From Clostridia bacterium (GTDB taxonomy: Bacteria; Bacillota_A; Clostridia; Oscillospirales; CAG-272), in NCBI GenBank assembly GCA_017445115.1, contig JAFSUU010000032.1, forward strand, positions 9,356 to 73,355: DNA of 64,000 bases. Direction: 5' to 3'. Position numbers and translations under genes: made by a program. The notes beneath the pieces are model-generated. The model was not told the origin of the DNA and ran no database searches. It saw only the letters and a program-made list of their open reading frames with translations. Of this stretch, positions 38,002-64,000 are shown in pieces; position 1 is the first letter of the stretch; each line of letters starts with the position of its first letter.

Positions 38002-38748
38002 TCATTTCCCTATCAGCTTCAGAAATCTCGTGTCGTTCATCTGCTCGTTCGTGAGATATTCTCCGTCGCGGAACAGAGCGTAGTTCGTCACGGGAGTCGG
38101 TGCATTTTGCGCTTTTTCTTTGCTGTCAAGAAGGATCGCCTTGAACTTCACGCCGTGTTCTTTTGCCGTCGCTTCCACGATCGGAACGTATTTCGCGTTG
38201 AAAGGACACTGATGCGTGTAATAGATAACGTATCCGTCGTCTTCGATATGCGGATGCTTCGCGCACTCTTTGAACTTTGGAGACGCCGCATCCTTTTCAA
38301 ACGGCAGATACCAGAGCTGGATCCCGCAATCCGACTCGTCGCAGACCGAAAATCCTTTGTATTTCAAAAACTTCGGATCGGCGAGAAACGACTTTTTCTT
38401 CGCAGAAGAAAGGATGCAAAGACCTGCTTTGCCGCCCTTTTTGCCGTCGGCGATACACTCTGAAAGCAGATCGTTCGAATAACCGTGCCCTTTGAAAGAT
38501 CCGGAGACCCAGAGGCAGTCGATATAAATATATCCCGGCGCCTCTATCGGCACCCACGCGTTCTCCGCCAGTATGTATTCGATAAAGCATTTGCCACGCT
38601 CCGTGCTCTTAAGAAAAACGAGCCCGTCGTCGAAGCGGTCCGCGAGCCACGCCTTTTTCGACGAGACCTGGACGTCGTTGTTGTTCGATATAGCGCAACA
38701 GATGTGCTCTTTTTCAAGATTCTCTTTTGTCACTCTTATGTATTCCAT
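38002..38748 (-). CDS. GNAT acetyltransferase with YoaP-like C-terminal domain
   Basis: The 248-residue protein has an N-terminal GNAT-like domain (IDCLWVSGSFKGHGYSNDLLSECIADGKK as the acetyl-CoA loop region) and a C-terminal YoaP-like part (VIYYTHQCPFNAKYVPIVEATAKEHGVKFKAILLDSKEKAQNAPTP) with thioredoxin-like spacing around a single Cys. YoaP-type proteins are widespread in Firmicutes without known substrate. GGAGG lies 5 nt before the ATG. Confidence 0.85.
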   Translation of the reverse strand: MEYIRVTKENLEKEHICCAISNNNDVQVSSKKAWLADRFDDGLVFLKSTERGKCFIEYILAENAWVPIEAPGYIYIDCLWVSGSFKGHGYSNDLLSECIADGKKGGKAGLCILSSAKKKSFLADPKFLKYKGFSVCDESDCGIQLWYLPFEKDAASPKFKECAKHPHIEDDGYVIYYTHQCPFNAKYVPIVEATAKEHGVKFKAILLDSKEKAQNAPTPVTNYALFRDGEYLTNEQMNDTRFLKLIGK

Positions 38749-52796: not shown

Positions 52797-52831
52797 AAAA
52801 CCGCGATTTGGTTGACAAATCGCGGTTTTTT
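52797..52831. terminator. Bidirectional terminator after dtxR
   Basis: AAAACCGCGATTTG / CAAATCGCGGTTTT stem with GTTGA loop and TT tail; T-runs occur in both directions between convergent genes. Confidence 0.88.
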
Positions 52832-53754: not shown

Positions 53755-53818
53755 AATACTCCCGTTTAATTATACGTTTTGATATGTCATTCTTCTCTGC
53801 AAACCGGAATTTGTCAAT
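53753..53818. repeat. 60-bp palindromic element, right half clear (copy 1)
   Basis: TCTGCAAACCGGAATTTGT (53796-53813... within TCTCTGCAAACC) matches the right half of the complete copy at 63149-63208 almost exactly. The left half is weak (ATAATACTCCCG, 53753 onward) and overlaps a ribosome site, so may be chance. The stop codon of the nucleotidyltransferase gene lies at its right edge. Confidence 0.6.
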
Positions 53819-54608
53819 CTTTCAAAAAAACGACCTTATATTCTCGGTTCATTGTATTAATATCTTCTTCGGTTATTTCATCCGGTGAAAAACGGTTTTT
53901 ATGGCAGAGCCTTAATAAGTTAAGATATGAAAGATTGGGCATTTCTTTTTCTATAAGTTCCAATATTTTAAACTTGCTTGAACAGGATCTTCCGGTGCAG
54001 AAATAATAATCTGACAGTGCCGTAGTAAGCACAATCTGTGTCATTATACGGATTGTGGGGCGCTTTCGCATTTCGGTATACGCCGAAAACCACTCGGAAT
54101 TTTCTTTTGCTAACAGCTTTAGCTGCTTCTGTTCAAGTTCAACGGAAGTTTGCACATCGTCCATCGTCGGTCTTTCAAGCGTGGATAATATGTCCTCTCC
54201 GTATAGAAGTTTACCGCTGTCAAGCATACGAAAGATTTCTATCGGTCGTTCAATAAGGTCCTTGTTGTCTATGCTTAAATCGAAATTATAGTTATAGGGA
54301 TGCAGCAAATGTCTTTCGCTGTAAATGGTCTGTGATATGGGAATGTCGTTGTTTGTTTCACGCTCCACTTTAGAAATCAAATCTTTGATATTCTTTTTTT
54401 CCTTCTCATAATCATACCGGTCATAAATTATATGTACCAAATCAATGTCGCTTCCGACATTTCCTGTATATGTATCGTCAGACAAAGAGCCGACAAGGAT
54501 GATTGACTTAATACTTTTGACAGCCTCAACAGCTTTCAAATAGATATTAATGATTTCCCAAGCCCGTTCTTTGGTCTTATTATGCATAGCGCTTTCCCAT
54601 TCAAACAT
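53814..54608 (-). CDS. Nucleotidyltransferase-domain protein, AT-rich gene
   Basis: The 264-residue protein has the Pol-beta-like nucleotidyltransferase motif SIILVGSLSDDTYTGNVGSDIDLVHIIYD (GS...DxD, about 42-68), then a helical C-terminal part like aminoglycoside nucleotidyltransferases and their relatives. It may modify a small molecule (antibiotic resistance-like) but the substrate is unknown. Its AT-rich codons differ from neighbours, and it sits exactly between two halves of the 60-bp element, so transfer is likely. Start could be 54608 or the ATG at 54587 (better spaced from GGGAA). Confidence 0.8.
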   Translation of the reverse strand: MFEWESAMHNKTKERAWEIINIYLKAVEAVKSIKSIILVGSLSDDTYTGNVGSDIDLVHIIYDRYDYEKEKKNIKDLISKVERETNNDIPISQTIYSERHLLHPYNYNFDLSIDNKDLIERPIEIFRMLDSGKLLYGEDILSTLERPTMDDVQTSVELEQKQLKLLAKENSEWFSAYTEMRKRPTIRIMTQIVLTTALSDYYFCTGRSCSSKFKILELIEKEMPNLSYLNLLRLCHKNRFSPDEITEEDINTMNREYKVVFLKD

Positions 54609-54616
54609 ATATTGAT

Positions 54617-54642
54617 TCTCTCACAAATCCCGGTTTGCCGGA
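54617..54642. repeat. 60-bp palindromic element, left half (copy 2)
   Basis: CTCACAAATCCCGGTTTGCCGG matches the left half of the complete copy at 59514-59573, including the flanking CTC. No right half follows; the next gene's stop codon is adjacent. Confidence 0.65.
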
Positions 54643-57983: not shown

Positions 57984-58553
57984 TCATTTGTAATACTTTT
58001 CAACGCCTCCGTAACCGACGATCAGCTTGTTTTCTCTCGTCCTTTTTATGAAGTTTTCAAGCCGCTTTTCAAATTCTTCAGGACGCTTCCTCGCAGCGTT
58101 AATATAAGCTATGCGGATCCTTTTGTACGGCTCCGAAAACGACTGATAGTTCCGCCACGCGGCGGCGTCCTGACGGATCTTTTCAAGGATGTCTTCGGGA
58201 AATACGAACTCGGCGCTTAAAACGTCTTCCACCGAAATTCTGACTTTCGGATGGATCATACCGCACCGGTCGAGATATTTCAGCCGTTCGATATTCGGCT
58301 GCGAATAGGCGCTGCCTTTTCTGCGCGGGGTAAAGCGGCGCAGCTGATGCAGCTCGTCAAGAGTCCCCGCCTGACCGTCGATCCACCCGAAGCAGAGCGC
58401 TTCTTCGACCGCGTCGTTATAGGAAACTCCCGCCTCCCCCGAGCTTGCGGACGGAAAAACGAACCATATTTCTTTTTCAGTCTCAAAATTCTTTGAAAGC
58501 CAGTCCCGCCACTCACCGCGGTCGGCGCAGAATACCGTCTTTTTTTCACTCAT
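57984..58553 (-). CDS. YdeI/OmpD-associated-like (DUF1905/YdhG-type) protein
   Basis: The 189-residue protein contains SKNFETEKEIWFVFPSASSGEAGVSYNDAVEEALCFGWIDGQAGTLDELHQLRRFTPRRKGSAYSQPNIERL, the YdeI/OmdA core, and a C-terminal helical tail with KRPEEFEKRLENFIKRTRENKLI. Function unknown; homologues are common in Firmicutes. Either the ATG at 58553 or a TTG at 58565, with GGGA ahead, could be the start. Confidence 0.85.
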   Translation of the reverse strand: MSEKKTVFCADRGEWRDWLSKNFETEKEIWFVFPSASSGEAGVSYNDAVEEALCFGWIDGQAGTLDELHQLRRFTPRRKGSAYSQPNIERLKYLDRCGMIHPKVRISVEDVLSAEFVFPEDILEKIRQDAAAWRNYQSFSEPYKRIRIAYINAARKRPEEFEKRLENFIKRTRENKLIVGYGGVEKYYK

Positions 58554-58564
58554 AGCAGTAACCA

Positions 58565-58627
58565 ATATATCCCGTTTTACCTTGTTCGTCTTTCTGTATT
58601 ACCTCTGCAAACCGAATTCTGTCAGTT
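58565..58627. repeat. 60-bp palindromic element, degenerate (copy 3)
   Basis: Right half CTCTGCAAACCGAATTCTGTCAG is clear (58603-58625). The left half ATATATCCCGTTTT (58565 onward) aligns to ACAAATCCCGGTTT of copy 4 with gaps, giving about 58 bp in total. It overlaps the start of the YdeI-like gene, so the left half may be coincidence. Confidence 0.55.
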
Positions 58628-58640
58628 TATTTTACAATTT

Positions 58641-59447
58641 TTATTTTCCTATAGCGTCCAGCATTTTAAGAACAATTCTGCTTGAATTGTCTGCCGCGAT
58701 ATCTCCGAAATTTTCATAGCTCTCGTGTGCTTTCCCGTCAGCTTTGTCGGAAAGCGCACGGATCACCACGAAAGGAATTTTGTATTTGATGCAGACAACG
58801 GCTGCAGCCGCCCCTTCCATCTCGCATGCGTAGGCGTTATAGTCGTCCTGCAGCTTTTTCACATATTCACTGTTTGCTATAAACTGATCGCCTGTCGCGA
58901 CCGTTCCCTTGAAGACGTGATCTTCACCTATGACTTCGACCGCTGCATCGTAAGCGAGCTGTACAAGCTGCTCATCGCAATCGTAGTATACGCCCGGCTC
59001 GCCTCCGAATCCGGGATCGCCCGAACGCCATTCAAATCCATCGTTTGAAAGAATGCCGTAATCGTGCTCGACAAGGCGGGAGGCAATGACTTCGTCGAGC
59101 ACCTGCGGTTCATCCGCGACGCCTCCGGCAATGCCCGTGAATATAACTTTTGAAATTGGATATGTATTCAGCATATCAGTGACGCCGGATGCAGCGCGTA
59201 TCTTTCCGATACCGGAGTGTGTGATAACGACCGGTTGACCGCGCAGACTGCCGACGTGATATTCTACATCTGCCACGGTATCCACGCGGTCGATCACCGC
59301 TTCCCCCAGCAAAAGGTCGATCTCGTTATCCATAGCTGAAATGATACCGATATATTCCGTCGGTTCTTTGGATTTTGTCGCACATCCGCAAAAAAGTGTC
59401 GAAAACGCTAAACATACCAAAAACAGTGCAGTCAGTCTTTTTTTCAT
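58641..59447 (-). CDS. Lipoprotein 5'-methylthioadenosine/S-adenosylhomocysteine nucleosidase-like protein
   Basis: The 268-residue protein has a lipoprotein signal (MKKRLTALFLVCLAFSTLFCGC, Cys at about 22) followed by a complete MTAN domain: IGIISAMDNEIDLLLGEAV, VVITHSGIGKIRAASGVTDML, VIFTGIAGGVADE, CEMEGAAAAVVCIKYKIPFVVIRALSDKADG. These hold the purine-nucleosidase catalytic Glu and the late Asp. MTAN enzymes are normally cytosolic, so an anchored, extracytoplasmic form is unusual. Flanked by two 60-bp element copies. Confidence 0.87.
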   Translation of the reverse strand: MKKRLTALFLVCLAFSTLFCGCATKSKEPTEYIGIISAMDNEIDLLLGEAVIDRVDTVADVEYHVGSLRGQPVVITHSGIGKIRAASGVTDMLNTYPISKVIFTGIAGGVADEPQVLDEVIASRLVEHDYGILSNDGFEWRSGDPGFGGEPGVYYDCDEQLVQLAYDAAVEVIGEDHVFKGTVATGDQFIANSEYVKKLQDDYNAYACEMEGAAAAVVCIKYKIPFVVIRALSDKADGKAHESYENFGDIAADNSSRIVLKMLDAIGK

Positions 59448-59513: not shown

Positions 59514-59573
59514 ACAAATCCCGGTTTGTCGGGACGATTCTTTCGTTGGTTTTCCTTTGAAGCCGGGATTTGT
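59514..59573. repeat. 60-bp palindromic element, complete (copy 4)
   Basis: Perfect 11-bp ends ACAAATCCCGG (59514-59524) and CCGGGATTTGT (59563-59573), with inner GTCGGGA, a central GGTTTTC and outer flanks CTC / CGATCTC. It fills most of the gap between the MBL-rubredoxin and nucleosidase genes. Confidence 0.85.
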
Positions 59574-59592: not shown

Positions 59593-60543
59593 TCAAGCTT
59601 TGTTGAACTTCTCCTTCGGCTGTTTGCACCTCGGGCAGCGCCAGTCGTCCGGCAGGTCTTCAAAAGCAACACCGTCGTGCTCGGCGGGATCGTAAACGTA
59701 GCCGCAGATCGAGCAGACATATTTTCCGCTTGCCTCCACGGCGCTGAAATCGACCTCTGCAAGCACCGTCGGAACGGGATGATCGAGATCCATCACGCGC
59801 TTCGCTTCGAGATTCTCATATCCCTGCGGCGTGTGCGTTCCGCAGTAAACCGTCGGATGATTGCGAACGAAATCACGGACGCGGTCAAGCGTCTCGCGCG
59901 CCGCGGGAAGATCTTCAAACACGACCGAAAGCTTGTTCTCATACAGAGCCTCGTCCATGTAGGTGATATCCCCGTGGAGCATATAGAACAATCCGTCGTC
60001 CTCGACAATCACGATACTGTTTCCGTTGGTGTGACCTTTGGCTTTGATGAAATAAACCCCGTCCGCGATTTTCTGACTGTCCGGGAAATTGTAATACGCG
60101 CCGTCCGTGTATTCAACAGGCACGATATTATCAAGTCCCTGAAGTTCGGCGGCGGATACTTCTTCCGCGCCGACGTAGATCTTTGCGTTCGGGAAGGACC
60201 TGAGCTCTCCCGAGTGGTCGGCGTGCTTATGCGTCAAAAGGATCTTTGTGACCTGCTCCGGCTTATACCCGAGCGCGGCGAACGCTTCCATATAACTGCA
60301 AATATCTTTGCCGGTAAAGATGGGGCTGTTTTCGTCCGGTACTTCCTCCGGCGTTCCGGCGGGAAGTCCCGTGTCGACGAGGATCACCTCGTCGCCGGTG
60401 TCTATCAAATAATTCTGCAGACTGCCGCGATAGCGTATGTTCTTGTCGAACTTATCAACGCCTTCCTCGCCGCCGAAGATAAACGGCTGGGTGTAGAAGC
60501 CGTCTTTTCTGAATTTTACCGCTTTGATGACCATTTTCGGCAT
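59593..60543 (-). CDS. MBL-fold hydrolase fused to rubredoxin
   Basis: The 316-residue protein has a metallo-beta-lactamase core ([24 protein letters not shown] with HxHxDH at 105-110, [37 protein letters not shown]). A rubredoxin follows at the C-terminus ([12 protein letters not shown] and [16 protein letters not shown]) with four Cys iron ligands. This fusion order suggests a redox-linked MBL enzyme, related to NO/O2 flavodiiron or quorum-quenching-type proteins, but without a flavodoxin domain. A small winged-HTH gene lies 14 nt upstream. Confidence 0.9.
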
Positions 60544-63148: not shown

Positions 63149-63208
63149 ATAAATCACGGTTTGTCGGGATCATTGTGTTCCGGTTTTCGTCTGCAAACCG
63201 GAATTTAT
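63149..63208. repeat. 60-bp palindromic element, complete (copy 5)
   Basis: ATAAATCACGGTTTG (63149-63163) and CTGCAAACCGGAATTTAT (63191-63208) form imperfect inverted ends with inner GTCGGGAT and GGTTTTCG, the same length as the element at 59514-59573. It lies in the 300-nt gap between ohrR and a GNAT gene, otherwise without genes. Confidence 0.8.
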
Positions 63209-63309: not shown

Positions 63310-63765
63310 TTATTCATCCGCTTTCTTCTTTGAATAATATACCAAGCCGCTGTCCCGTTTAATTTCCGTATATCCCAGTTTTGTATAAAAAGAATTAGTT
63401 CTTATATTCCAGTCGGGTGTGTCCAGGGCAAACTCTTTTACTCCGTGAAACATTGATTCTATTTCTTGCATCATAAAAGATCCGTAGCCCTTACGGAAAT
63501 GTTCCGGCGCAACAAAGATCCTGCCGATGTTCAGCGTATCTCCTTGCAAAAACAGGATCGCTCCGCCGACGATCAAGCCTTCGTCCGTCAATTTATACAG
63601 GTGACCTTGTCTTGCCATTTCCGTATAAAATGAATCCGACATATACCCGGGAGGACCTCCTGCCGACGGCCCGCCCATGAAAATATCGCTGTCAAATGCG
63701 CGCTTTGAAATTCCGTTCAGAGTCAATGCATCTGACGTACCCGCCTTTACTAACTGTAAACTCAT
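63310..63765 (-). CDS. GNAT-family acetyltransferase
   Basis: The 151-residue protein has the GNAT acetyl-CoA motif IFVAPEHFRKGYGSFMMQEIESMFHGVKEFALDTPDWNIRTNSFYTKLGYTEIKRD. N-terminal part: LQLVKAGTSDALTLNGISKRAFDSDIFMGGPSAGG. Substrate unknown. The start at 63765 follows GGAG; it overlaps the upstream GNAT gene by 4 nt (ATGA). Confidence 0.88.
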   Translation of the reverse strand: MSLQLVKAGTSDALTLNGISKRAFDSDIFMGGPSAGGPPGYMSDSFYTEMARQGHLYKLTDEGLIVGGAILFLQGDTLNIGRIFVAPEHFRKGYGSFMMQEIESMFHGVKEFALDTPDWNIRTNSFYTKLGYTEIKRDSGLVYYSKKKADE

Positions 63766-64000
63766 AATCTGCACTCCATTTGAATATCAAAAGGCTCATC
63801 TTCTACACAGGAAGGTATCGGATGTTCACTCAGTTTGAAGCCCATTGCCTTGTAAAAATCAATGGTTTCCTCGGCAGAACAGCAGGATGCGTACAGGGCA
63901 GAAGCCCCACGGCCTCTTGCATAATCAGCGACAGTTTCAACCAGCCGTCGTCCGATTCCGCACCGTCTGAATTCGCGGGAAACATGAAAACTGTCAATGA
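63762..64000 (-). CDS. GNAT-family acetyltransferase, C-terminal part (cut by window edge)
   Basis: The last 79 codons are visible (partial at the 5' end): FHVSREFRRCGIGRRLVETVADYARGRGASALYASCCSAEETIDFYKAMGFKLSEHPI. The CGIGRRL acetyl-CoA loop and DFYKAMGF beta-bulge motif identify the family. Its stop overlaps the next GNAT gene, so the two are co-transcribed tandem acetyltransferases. They are not close copies. Confidence 0.85.
   Translation of the reverse strand, partial: IDSFHVSREFRRCGIGRRLVETVADYARGRGASALYASCCSAEETIDFYKAMGFKLSEHPIPSCVEDEPFDIQMECRL

Follow-up and report, generated by a model that had tools for sequence, protein, structure and literature searches.

The locus raises the question of what a 60-bp palindrome does between two genes of a Clostridia bacterium. 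It lies at 59514-59573 of the window, by which we mean the whole 64-kb stretch of DNA that was analysed. The initial annotation had read it as a structured, dispersed element, possibly MITE-like or a recombination site. The palindrome is real and its 11-bp inverted ends are perfect (ACAAATCCCGG / CCGGGATTTGT). The second, diverged copy that had been reported at 63149-63208 was also confirmed, with 40 of the 60 positions identical in an ungapped comparison, against a best match of 36 and a mean of 31.8 in 60 first-order Markov versions of the window. The shared block sequence CGGTTTGTCGGGA is the same in both copies. The single-strand fold was compared to that of shuffled sequences and gave z values of -2.9 to -3.8 as DNA and of -2.5 to -3.1 as RNA. 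No Rfam family matched the 64-kb window at the gathering score.

Since the annotated genes around the sites, from 53.8 to 64 kb, are on the minus strand, the site is described in this direction. Read with the genes, the element at 59514-59573 (W1) starts with a left arm (ACAAATCCCGGCTTC..), continues with a spacer and ends with a right arm (..TCCCGACAAACCGGGATTTGT) that is followed by GAGG. On this strand the element consists of two antiparallel copies of a 16-bp core, ACAAATYCCGGYTTG.. on the left and ACAAAYCGGGATTTGT on the right. The right core, ACAAACCGGGATTTGT and then GAGG, occupies 59514-59529, and the left core, ACAAATCCCGGCTTCA, is inverted against it at 59558-59573. The full element is placed between the stop of an MBL-fold/rubredoxin gene (59593-60543, minus strand), which ends 18-19 nt ahead of the left arm, and an MTA/SAH-nucleosidase-like gene (58641-59447, minus strand). 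The second copy (W2, minus strand) is found past the stop of a GNAT-like acetyltransferase gene (63310-63774, minus strand; 34.2 bits to the RimI model, below the cut-off of 86.4). W2 looks like the end of an array, because a terminator-like hairpin and then the promoter region of an OhrR/MarR-like gene come next on its 3' side.

Scanning the 64 kb with a half-site matrix and nhmmer revealed additional half-sites at 53799-53814, 54623-54638 and 58608-58622, which the initial annotation had overlooked. All half-sites above 19 bits were within 53.8-63.2 kb, with the matrix built from the same half-sites and their own scores biased upward. The next-best matrix score elsewhere in the window was 15.1, in a terminator-like palindrome at 52797-52829. 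This palindrome has ACAAATCGCGGTTTT in common with the left arm, which may be chance. The right core GCAAACCGGGATTTGT (54623-54638, minus strand) lies immediately 5' of a nucleotidyltransferase-domain gene (53814-54608, minus strand; PF01909, 22.2 bits with a cut-off of 21) and has little left arm visible ahead of it. The left arm ACAAATTCCGGTTTGC (53799-53814, minus strand) overlaps the stop of this gene, the single gene between the two, and the right half beyond the arm is weak. A tentative, degraded site (W4, 58564-58622, minus strand) was seen ahead of an OmdA/YdeI-like gene (57984-58553, minus strand; PF13376), with the left arm ACAGAATTCGGTTTG at 58608-58622 by the matrix and a right-core-like AAAACGGGATATATT near 58564-58578 by eye. 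Candidate cassettes are the OmdA/YdeI-like gene 3' of W4 and the nucleosidase-like gene, which has the right core of W1 on one side and the left arm of W4 on the other. The related locus L003 shares synteny with the MBL-CDF-GPx block that separates W1 from W2 (79% over 2.9 kb), so W1 and W2 bound insertions beside an older operon; this block is no cassette array. As an example the window is sparse and partly decayed, and the case rests on its relatives.

The relatives were reached through the homologues of the MBL-rubredoxin protein, which gave 80 loci, mostly from ruminant-gut assemblies by title; the assignment of the relatives to Clostridia is taken from these record titles. The site was not a companion of this gene, as the flanks of 27 of the 80 homologue loci were checked by eye and none had a W1-like site after the gene. 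A partial likeness was seen in L002, where the alignment with the window extends 10 bp into the element, and a two-sequence model run over the 80 loci gave one match, elsewhere in L002. Homologues more than 80% identical are present in records titled Clostridia, Bacteroidales, Prevotella and Kandleria (e.g. L018-L080), which suggests wide gene transfer or misbinned contigs.

Further copies of the site were found in the related genomes. In 10 genomes of these loci, the half-site pattern with one mismatch gave 34 matches in 9 genomes compared to 4 for the reversed pattern, and full sites were observed between genes in L111, L112, L115/L002 and L117. A covariance model was built from 8 sites, W1 and W2 included, and the 58.8 bits that W1 obtained are those of one of the model's own sequences. 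Over 41 sources the model gave 30 matches, and after subtraction of 8 opposite-strand readings and 4 half-site or platform matches, 18 full sites were retained, 8 of them being the sequences of the model. When 147 relatives of G006 were searched, 9 genomes matched at E 0.01 or better, some of them weakly. A strict two-arm pattern had 0 matches in 146 relatives of G005; it was too strict and missed the known sites of G003 and G005 too. The left consensus arm holds the 16-bp core ACAAA-TYCCGG-TTTGT and the right one ACAAA-YCGGGA-TTTGT, and the site is therefore composed of two antiparallel copies of one core, which is itself the 16-bp palindrome ACAAATC-GG-GATTTGT.

The sites in the related genomes usually have a stop codon just before them and a ribosome-binding site and a start codon just after them. 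For 15 of the 18 full sites, the distance between a stop codon and the beginning of the site is -5 to +18 nt, and in 12 a start codon is present within 16 nt, a placement that is independent of the covariance model, which carries no gene information. In the window, W1 lies 61 nt from its start codon and W2 100 nt from its stop. An intrinsic terminator was rejected, since no run of T follows 3' of the site on the gene strand. Further copies do occur in the relatives, and they are not only ordinary terminators.

In G285:C7 (L165, minus strand), four tandem full sites were observed, one between each of the first five genes. This array starts with AGTATAATGAAATAAACAAATC|GGGATTTG and a methylated-DNA-cysteine-methyltransferase-like gene, followed by a hexapeptide-type acetyltransferase (over 350 bp, its DNA is 66% identical to vat(E)) and then by small genes. 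G005:C42 (L117) has six genes with three model matches, and two of its junctions contain only a remnant of the right half (by eye), as does the window at 54623. The cassette genes in the arrays, mostly named by eye, include acetyltransferases, nucleotidyltransferases, a methyltransferase and a MazG-like gene, a content that resembles that of known cassettes. Covariation between the arms was compared to shuffles. Pairing on the 18 full sites was 87.0% versus 85.6%, with 44-54 of 500 shuffles reaching the observed values, and on all 30 rows it was 85.4% in both; folding of the arms therefore has no support from covariation. Gene-less units, in which a left arm follows a right core within about 9-25 nt, occur at the start of the L169 contig (minus strand, 1-400) and in L235 (1982-2020) and resemble empty cassettes. 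Near-perfect short-loop palindromes (e.g. GATTTATCGGCAACGCCGATAAATC) are dispersed in G002 and G155 (L126, L133, L138, L145, L147, L148) and were rejected as members, being a separate family.

The exact 15-mer ACAAATCGGGATTTG was searched in 395 relatives of G285; 30 of these genomes contain it, at 36 places in total, with 0 for the reversed control. Thirty of the 36 places were analysed as loci L173-L202, and likely coding coincidences (L174 and L176, both hsdS-like by eye, and also L189 and L193) were kept in the counts. In the relatives, a lone right core is located between a promoter-like box and the first gene. A TATAAT-like box was present just 5' of the core in 20 of the 30 loci, compared to 53 of 380 control windows, and a motif like a ribosome-binding site just 3' of the core in 21 of 30, compared to 40 of 382. 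The stop of the first gene had a left-arm match in 11 of 19 cases versus 37 of 1908 control stops, the 19 being first genes with a closed reading frame that were chosen only for their right core. A tRNA gene of varied identity, located about 80-610 nt upstream of the core and on its strand, was observed in 9 of 27 distinct loci scanned without a control run (L116, L168, L118, L177, L180, L182, L183, L200 and L202). In three genome pairs the same upstream sequence is followed by a different first gene, as for a primary site with a putative promoter ahead of the first cassette. In G231, two contigs share one platform sequence. On one of them the first gene is an MBL-rubredoxin homologue (64% amino acid identity to that of the window), with a full site after it, and on the second contig a different MBL-fold gene comes first; these may be two loci or two strains. 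Empty sites in close relatives, which the initial annotation had proposed to look for, were not found: a search for empty platforms in 89 genomes gave 3 matches, and only G199's own was in a platform.

The exchange of genes at the core was followed by comparing 69 cores with 300 bp before and 600 bp after them. Similar pairs were found 33 times upstream, 23 times downstream and 2 times on both sides. Many of them were full sites that are alike, fragments of the same contig or cases in which the similarity lies at a distance from the core, and six pairs were informative. Three had the same gene behind a different upstream region (G009/G200, 86.7% over 588 bp; G231/G285, 99.2% over 363 bp; G472/G435, 87.8% over 394 bp), and here the identity begins 0-12 bp from the core. 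The other three had the same upstream region and a different gene (G359/G471, G200/G199 and G174/G281; 77-90% over 61-102 bp), and the identity stops within 0-6 bp of the core. For G199/G200, 55 bp of the 3' flank, counted from the left arm onward, are identical as well, so that what was swapped is the gene enclosed by both ends. At the protein level, genes in different contexts were alike for the GNAT cassettes of G009/G200 (89%), the methyltransferase cassettes of G231/G285 (100% over 114 residues), the nucleotidyltransferases of G002/G005 (73%), the MazG-like genes of G199/G005 (74%) and unclassified genes of G472/G435 (83%). The homology switch in both directions inside ACAAAYC|GGGATTTGT is the trace that would be expected of a site-specific exchange. 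The relatives are draft metagenome assemblies, in which circular cassettes are not visible. In the window, a GNAT-like gene at 38005-38748 (minus strand) is 75% identical in amino acids to the GNAT cassette protein of G009/G200 and has no core or left arm; it is possibly the chromosomal source of a cassette.

The best explanation, to which we assign a probability of about 0.75, is that the element is the attC-like recombination site of a site-specific gene-cassette exchange system. The matching sites appear to be places where single genes were swapped between ruminant-gut Clostridia. The swaps, the anatomy, placement and orientation of the sites, the switches at the core and the left arms at the gene ends can all be read from the sequences. 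In the proposed mechanism, the platform would consist of a promoter and one 16-bp core (ACAAATC|GGGATTTGT) just 5' of the ribosome-binding site and would take the role of attI and its promoter. A cassette would usually be one short gene, beginning right after the half core GGGATTTGT and ending with a left arm (ACAAATTCCGGTTTGTCG..) that is inverted with respect to the core. At the junctions of an array, the left arm of one cassette, the spacer and the next right core would form a palindrome of 52-68 nt. A recombinase encoded elsewhere in the genome would join right cores, probably by exchange within them, and cassettes would enter and leave as units and be read from the platform promoter. The left arm would take part and perhaps fold onto the right arm in single-stranded DNA, giving a duplex like the platform core. 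From the first reading, a structured, dispersed element that is possibly a recombination site is supported by the recurrence between genes and the homology switches at the core. A MITE-like nature is not favoured: in the cases compared, the gene between two cores changes, which makes the palindrome the place where two cassettes join and not an element that would insert on its own.

In MITEs and mobile insertion cassettes, inverted repeats enclose a passenger gene or nothing at all, which is also found here. An unlikely, although the strongest, alternative to gene-cassette exchange is that the units are transposon-like mobile insertion cassettes, in which a right core and a left arm are the inverted repeats that flank each gene, a transposase acts in trans and the palindrome arises where two units abut. 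Such repeats do surround single genes in L116, L177, L183 and at the nucleotidyltransferase gene of the window, the gene-less units in L169 and L235 would fit, and the swapped piece of G199/G200 is bounded by both ends. However, the outer ends do not match, as left arms often reach TCGGGAT whereas platform right cores are conserved only from ACAAA on. The same promoter segment, and one same platform, is found ahead of different genes, the genes keep one orientation to promoter and array, and they form tandem arrays. In an unsystematic look no target-site duplication was noticed.

The exchange system works like an integron. As in attI and attC, a primary site is linked to a promoter, cassettes of one short gene end in a palindromic site with two antiparallel cores, and all are in a single orientation; the 18 full sites and the arrays of G285:C7 and G005:C42 show this succession of a gene and its site, with the orientation kept. 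The ends of attC sites carry the R boxes GTTRRRY and RYYYAAC, and IntI is a tyrosine recombinase with an IntI-specific additional domain. Here, 0 of the 18 sites had GTTRRRY within their 3' part, 0 of 18 had RYYYAAC within their 5' part, and GTTRRRY on the other strand was also found in 0 of 18. The IntI model TIGR02249 had no match above the cut-off in any of 7 genomes, which are drafts and may be incomplete; weaker matches were present in 7 of 7 and likewise in 14 of 14 control genomes. The Xer-family proteins of L209, L212, L205 and L101 reach 79-125 bits to this model, compared to a cut-off of 265. In PMC2727003, a GTT/AAC consensus is given for the attC boxes, and attC has two antiparallel core sites. 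Only the right one recombines, yet the left core cannot be dispensed with, and the substrate is the folded bottom strand. The same source describes attC sites as poorly conserved in sequence. We do not class the system as an integron, because the R boxes are absent from the 18 sites, TIGR02249 is not reached above its cut-off and the sequence rather than the structure is conserved. A true IntI-driven integron is improbable, even less likely than the transposon-like units; its attC sites would have to be very diverged and its integrase overlooked through incomplete assemblies or CALIN-like arrays. The common layout with two antiparallel cores as in attC (PMC2727003) speaks for it, and so do the few CALIN that IntegronFinder 2.0 reported in Firmicutes (PMC9024848). 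The same study found one complete integron in Firmicutes, although this group made up 22% of its genomes (PMC9024848). The conserved arms, the missing boxes, the lack of an adjacent integrase and weak TIGR02249 matches that are no commoner than in controls argue against it. A regulatory element, with the core as a repressor operator or the hairpin as a leader or mRNA-stability element common to a gene set, is very improbable: the palindromic core does have a -10-like box on one side and the ribosome-binding site on the other, and full sites do sit between genes, but this leaves the homology switches in both directions, the left arms at 11 of 19 gene ends and the same cassette in different genomes and contexts unexplained.

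The dif modules (pdif, XerC/XerD) of Acinetobacter plasmids share with the gene-cassette exchange proposed here the small gene modules and the lack of a linked recombinase. The core is presumably unlike a dif site. In the dif system, short inverted-type sites flank the small gene modules, and the host Xer proteins move these modules (PMC13141974). The sites described here, in contrast, are palindromic pairs in head-to-tail arrays behind a promoter, on chromosomal-looking contigs, many with tRNA genes.

The recombinase was searched beside the core in the 30 core loci, within 1.5 kb on each side where the contig allowed and by the starts of the ORFs, and none was seen except an integrase-like ORF in L198 (by eye). 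A motif scan of 16 larger regions detected no recombinase; it was insensitive and missed a large serine recombinase in L235. The distance to a gene for a large serine recombinase is about 2.4 kb in L235, where the gene is found beyond the array, about 6 kb from the site in L169 and about 19 kb in G005:C42. Three contigs with arrays also carry such a gene, G231:C13 (5837), G200:C11 (8266) and G005:C42 (22993). Serine recombinases were present in 7 of the 8 array genomes and absent from G006. When 10 of 23 matches were compared together with those of L169 and L235, they were diverse, and among the matches listed the two near arrays matched neither one another nor any of the others closely. The integrases in L216, L217 and L222 were rejected, having no core nearby.

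Tyrosine recombinases were found in all 8 array genomes. G003 has only one, which belongs to the only group common to all 8; 20 of 23 matches from these draft genomes passed the motif filter for the grouping. The group members L209 and L212 are of the Xer family, with 235 and 221 bits to XerC (cut-off 335), and score below every curated cut-off. A Xer-family protein is tentatively the best candidate for the enzyme so far, its sharing being weak as evidence since a housekeeping Xer gene would be shared anyway.

Whether this amounts to an integron-equivalent gene-capture system of separate origin in gut Clostridia is, in our estimate, evenly balanced. The lone core would then be the promoter-linked platform, the inverted pair the cassette end and the recombinase unlinked, perhaps a diverged host Xer protein, with arrays that have no integrase of their own. 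If true, this would account for the circulation of small genes of the acetyltransferase, nucleotidyltransferase and repair types in ruminant-gut Clostridia, invisible to attC models, and the arrays without a linked integrase would make it possible to test cleanly whether cassette exchange can be driven by a recombinase of the housekeeping type. By titles and the starts of abstracts, no description of such sites in Clostridia was found in the literature searched, a scope that left out preprints and most subscription journals.

The distribution was controlled in other groups. The exact 15-mer core was found in 2 of 100 Bacteroidales genomes, neither with a platform layout (by eye), and 2 of 99 relatives of Ruminococcus flavefaciens matched, G177 and G162, both already in the G006 set. 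Two strict patterns gave 0 and 0 matches in viral contigs. Among plasmids, 37 records matched at 60-80% identity; none covers 80% of the array and, among the matches listed, only single genes were hit. In this sampling, the sites are confined to the relatives of G006 and G285. Genes for four-helix-bundle-like proteins of the 23S rRNA intervening-sequence type adjoin cores in four loci by eye (L166, 5430-5786, minus strand; L237, 362-727, plus strand; L234, 8826-9182, plus strand; L241, 494-895, plus strand), and one such gene is duplicated once (L202/L234).
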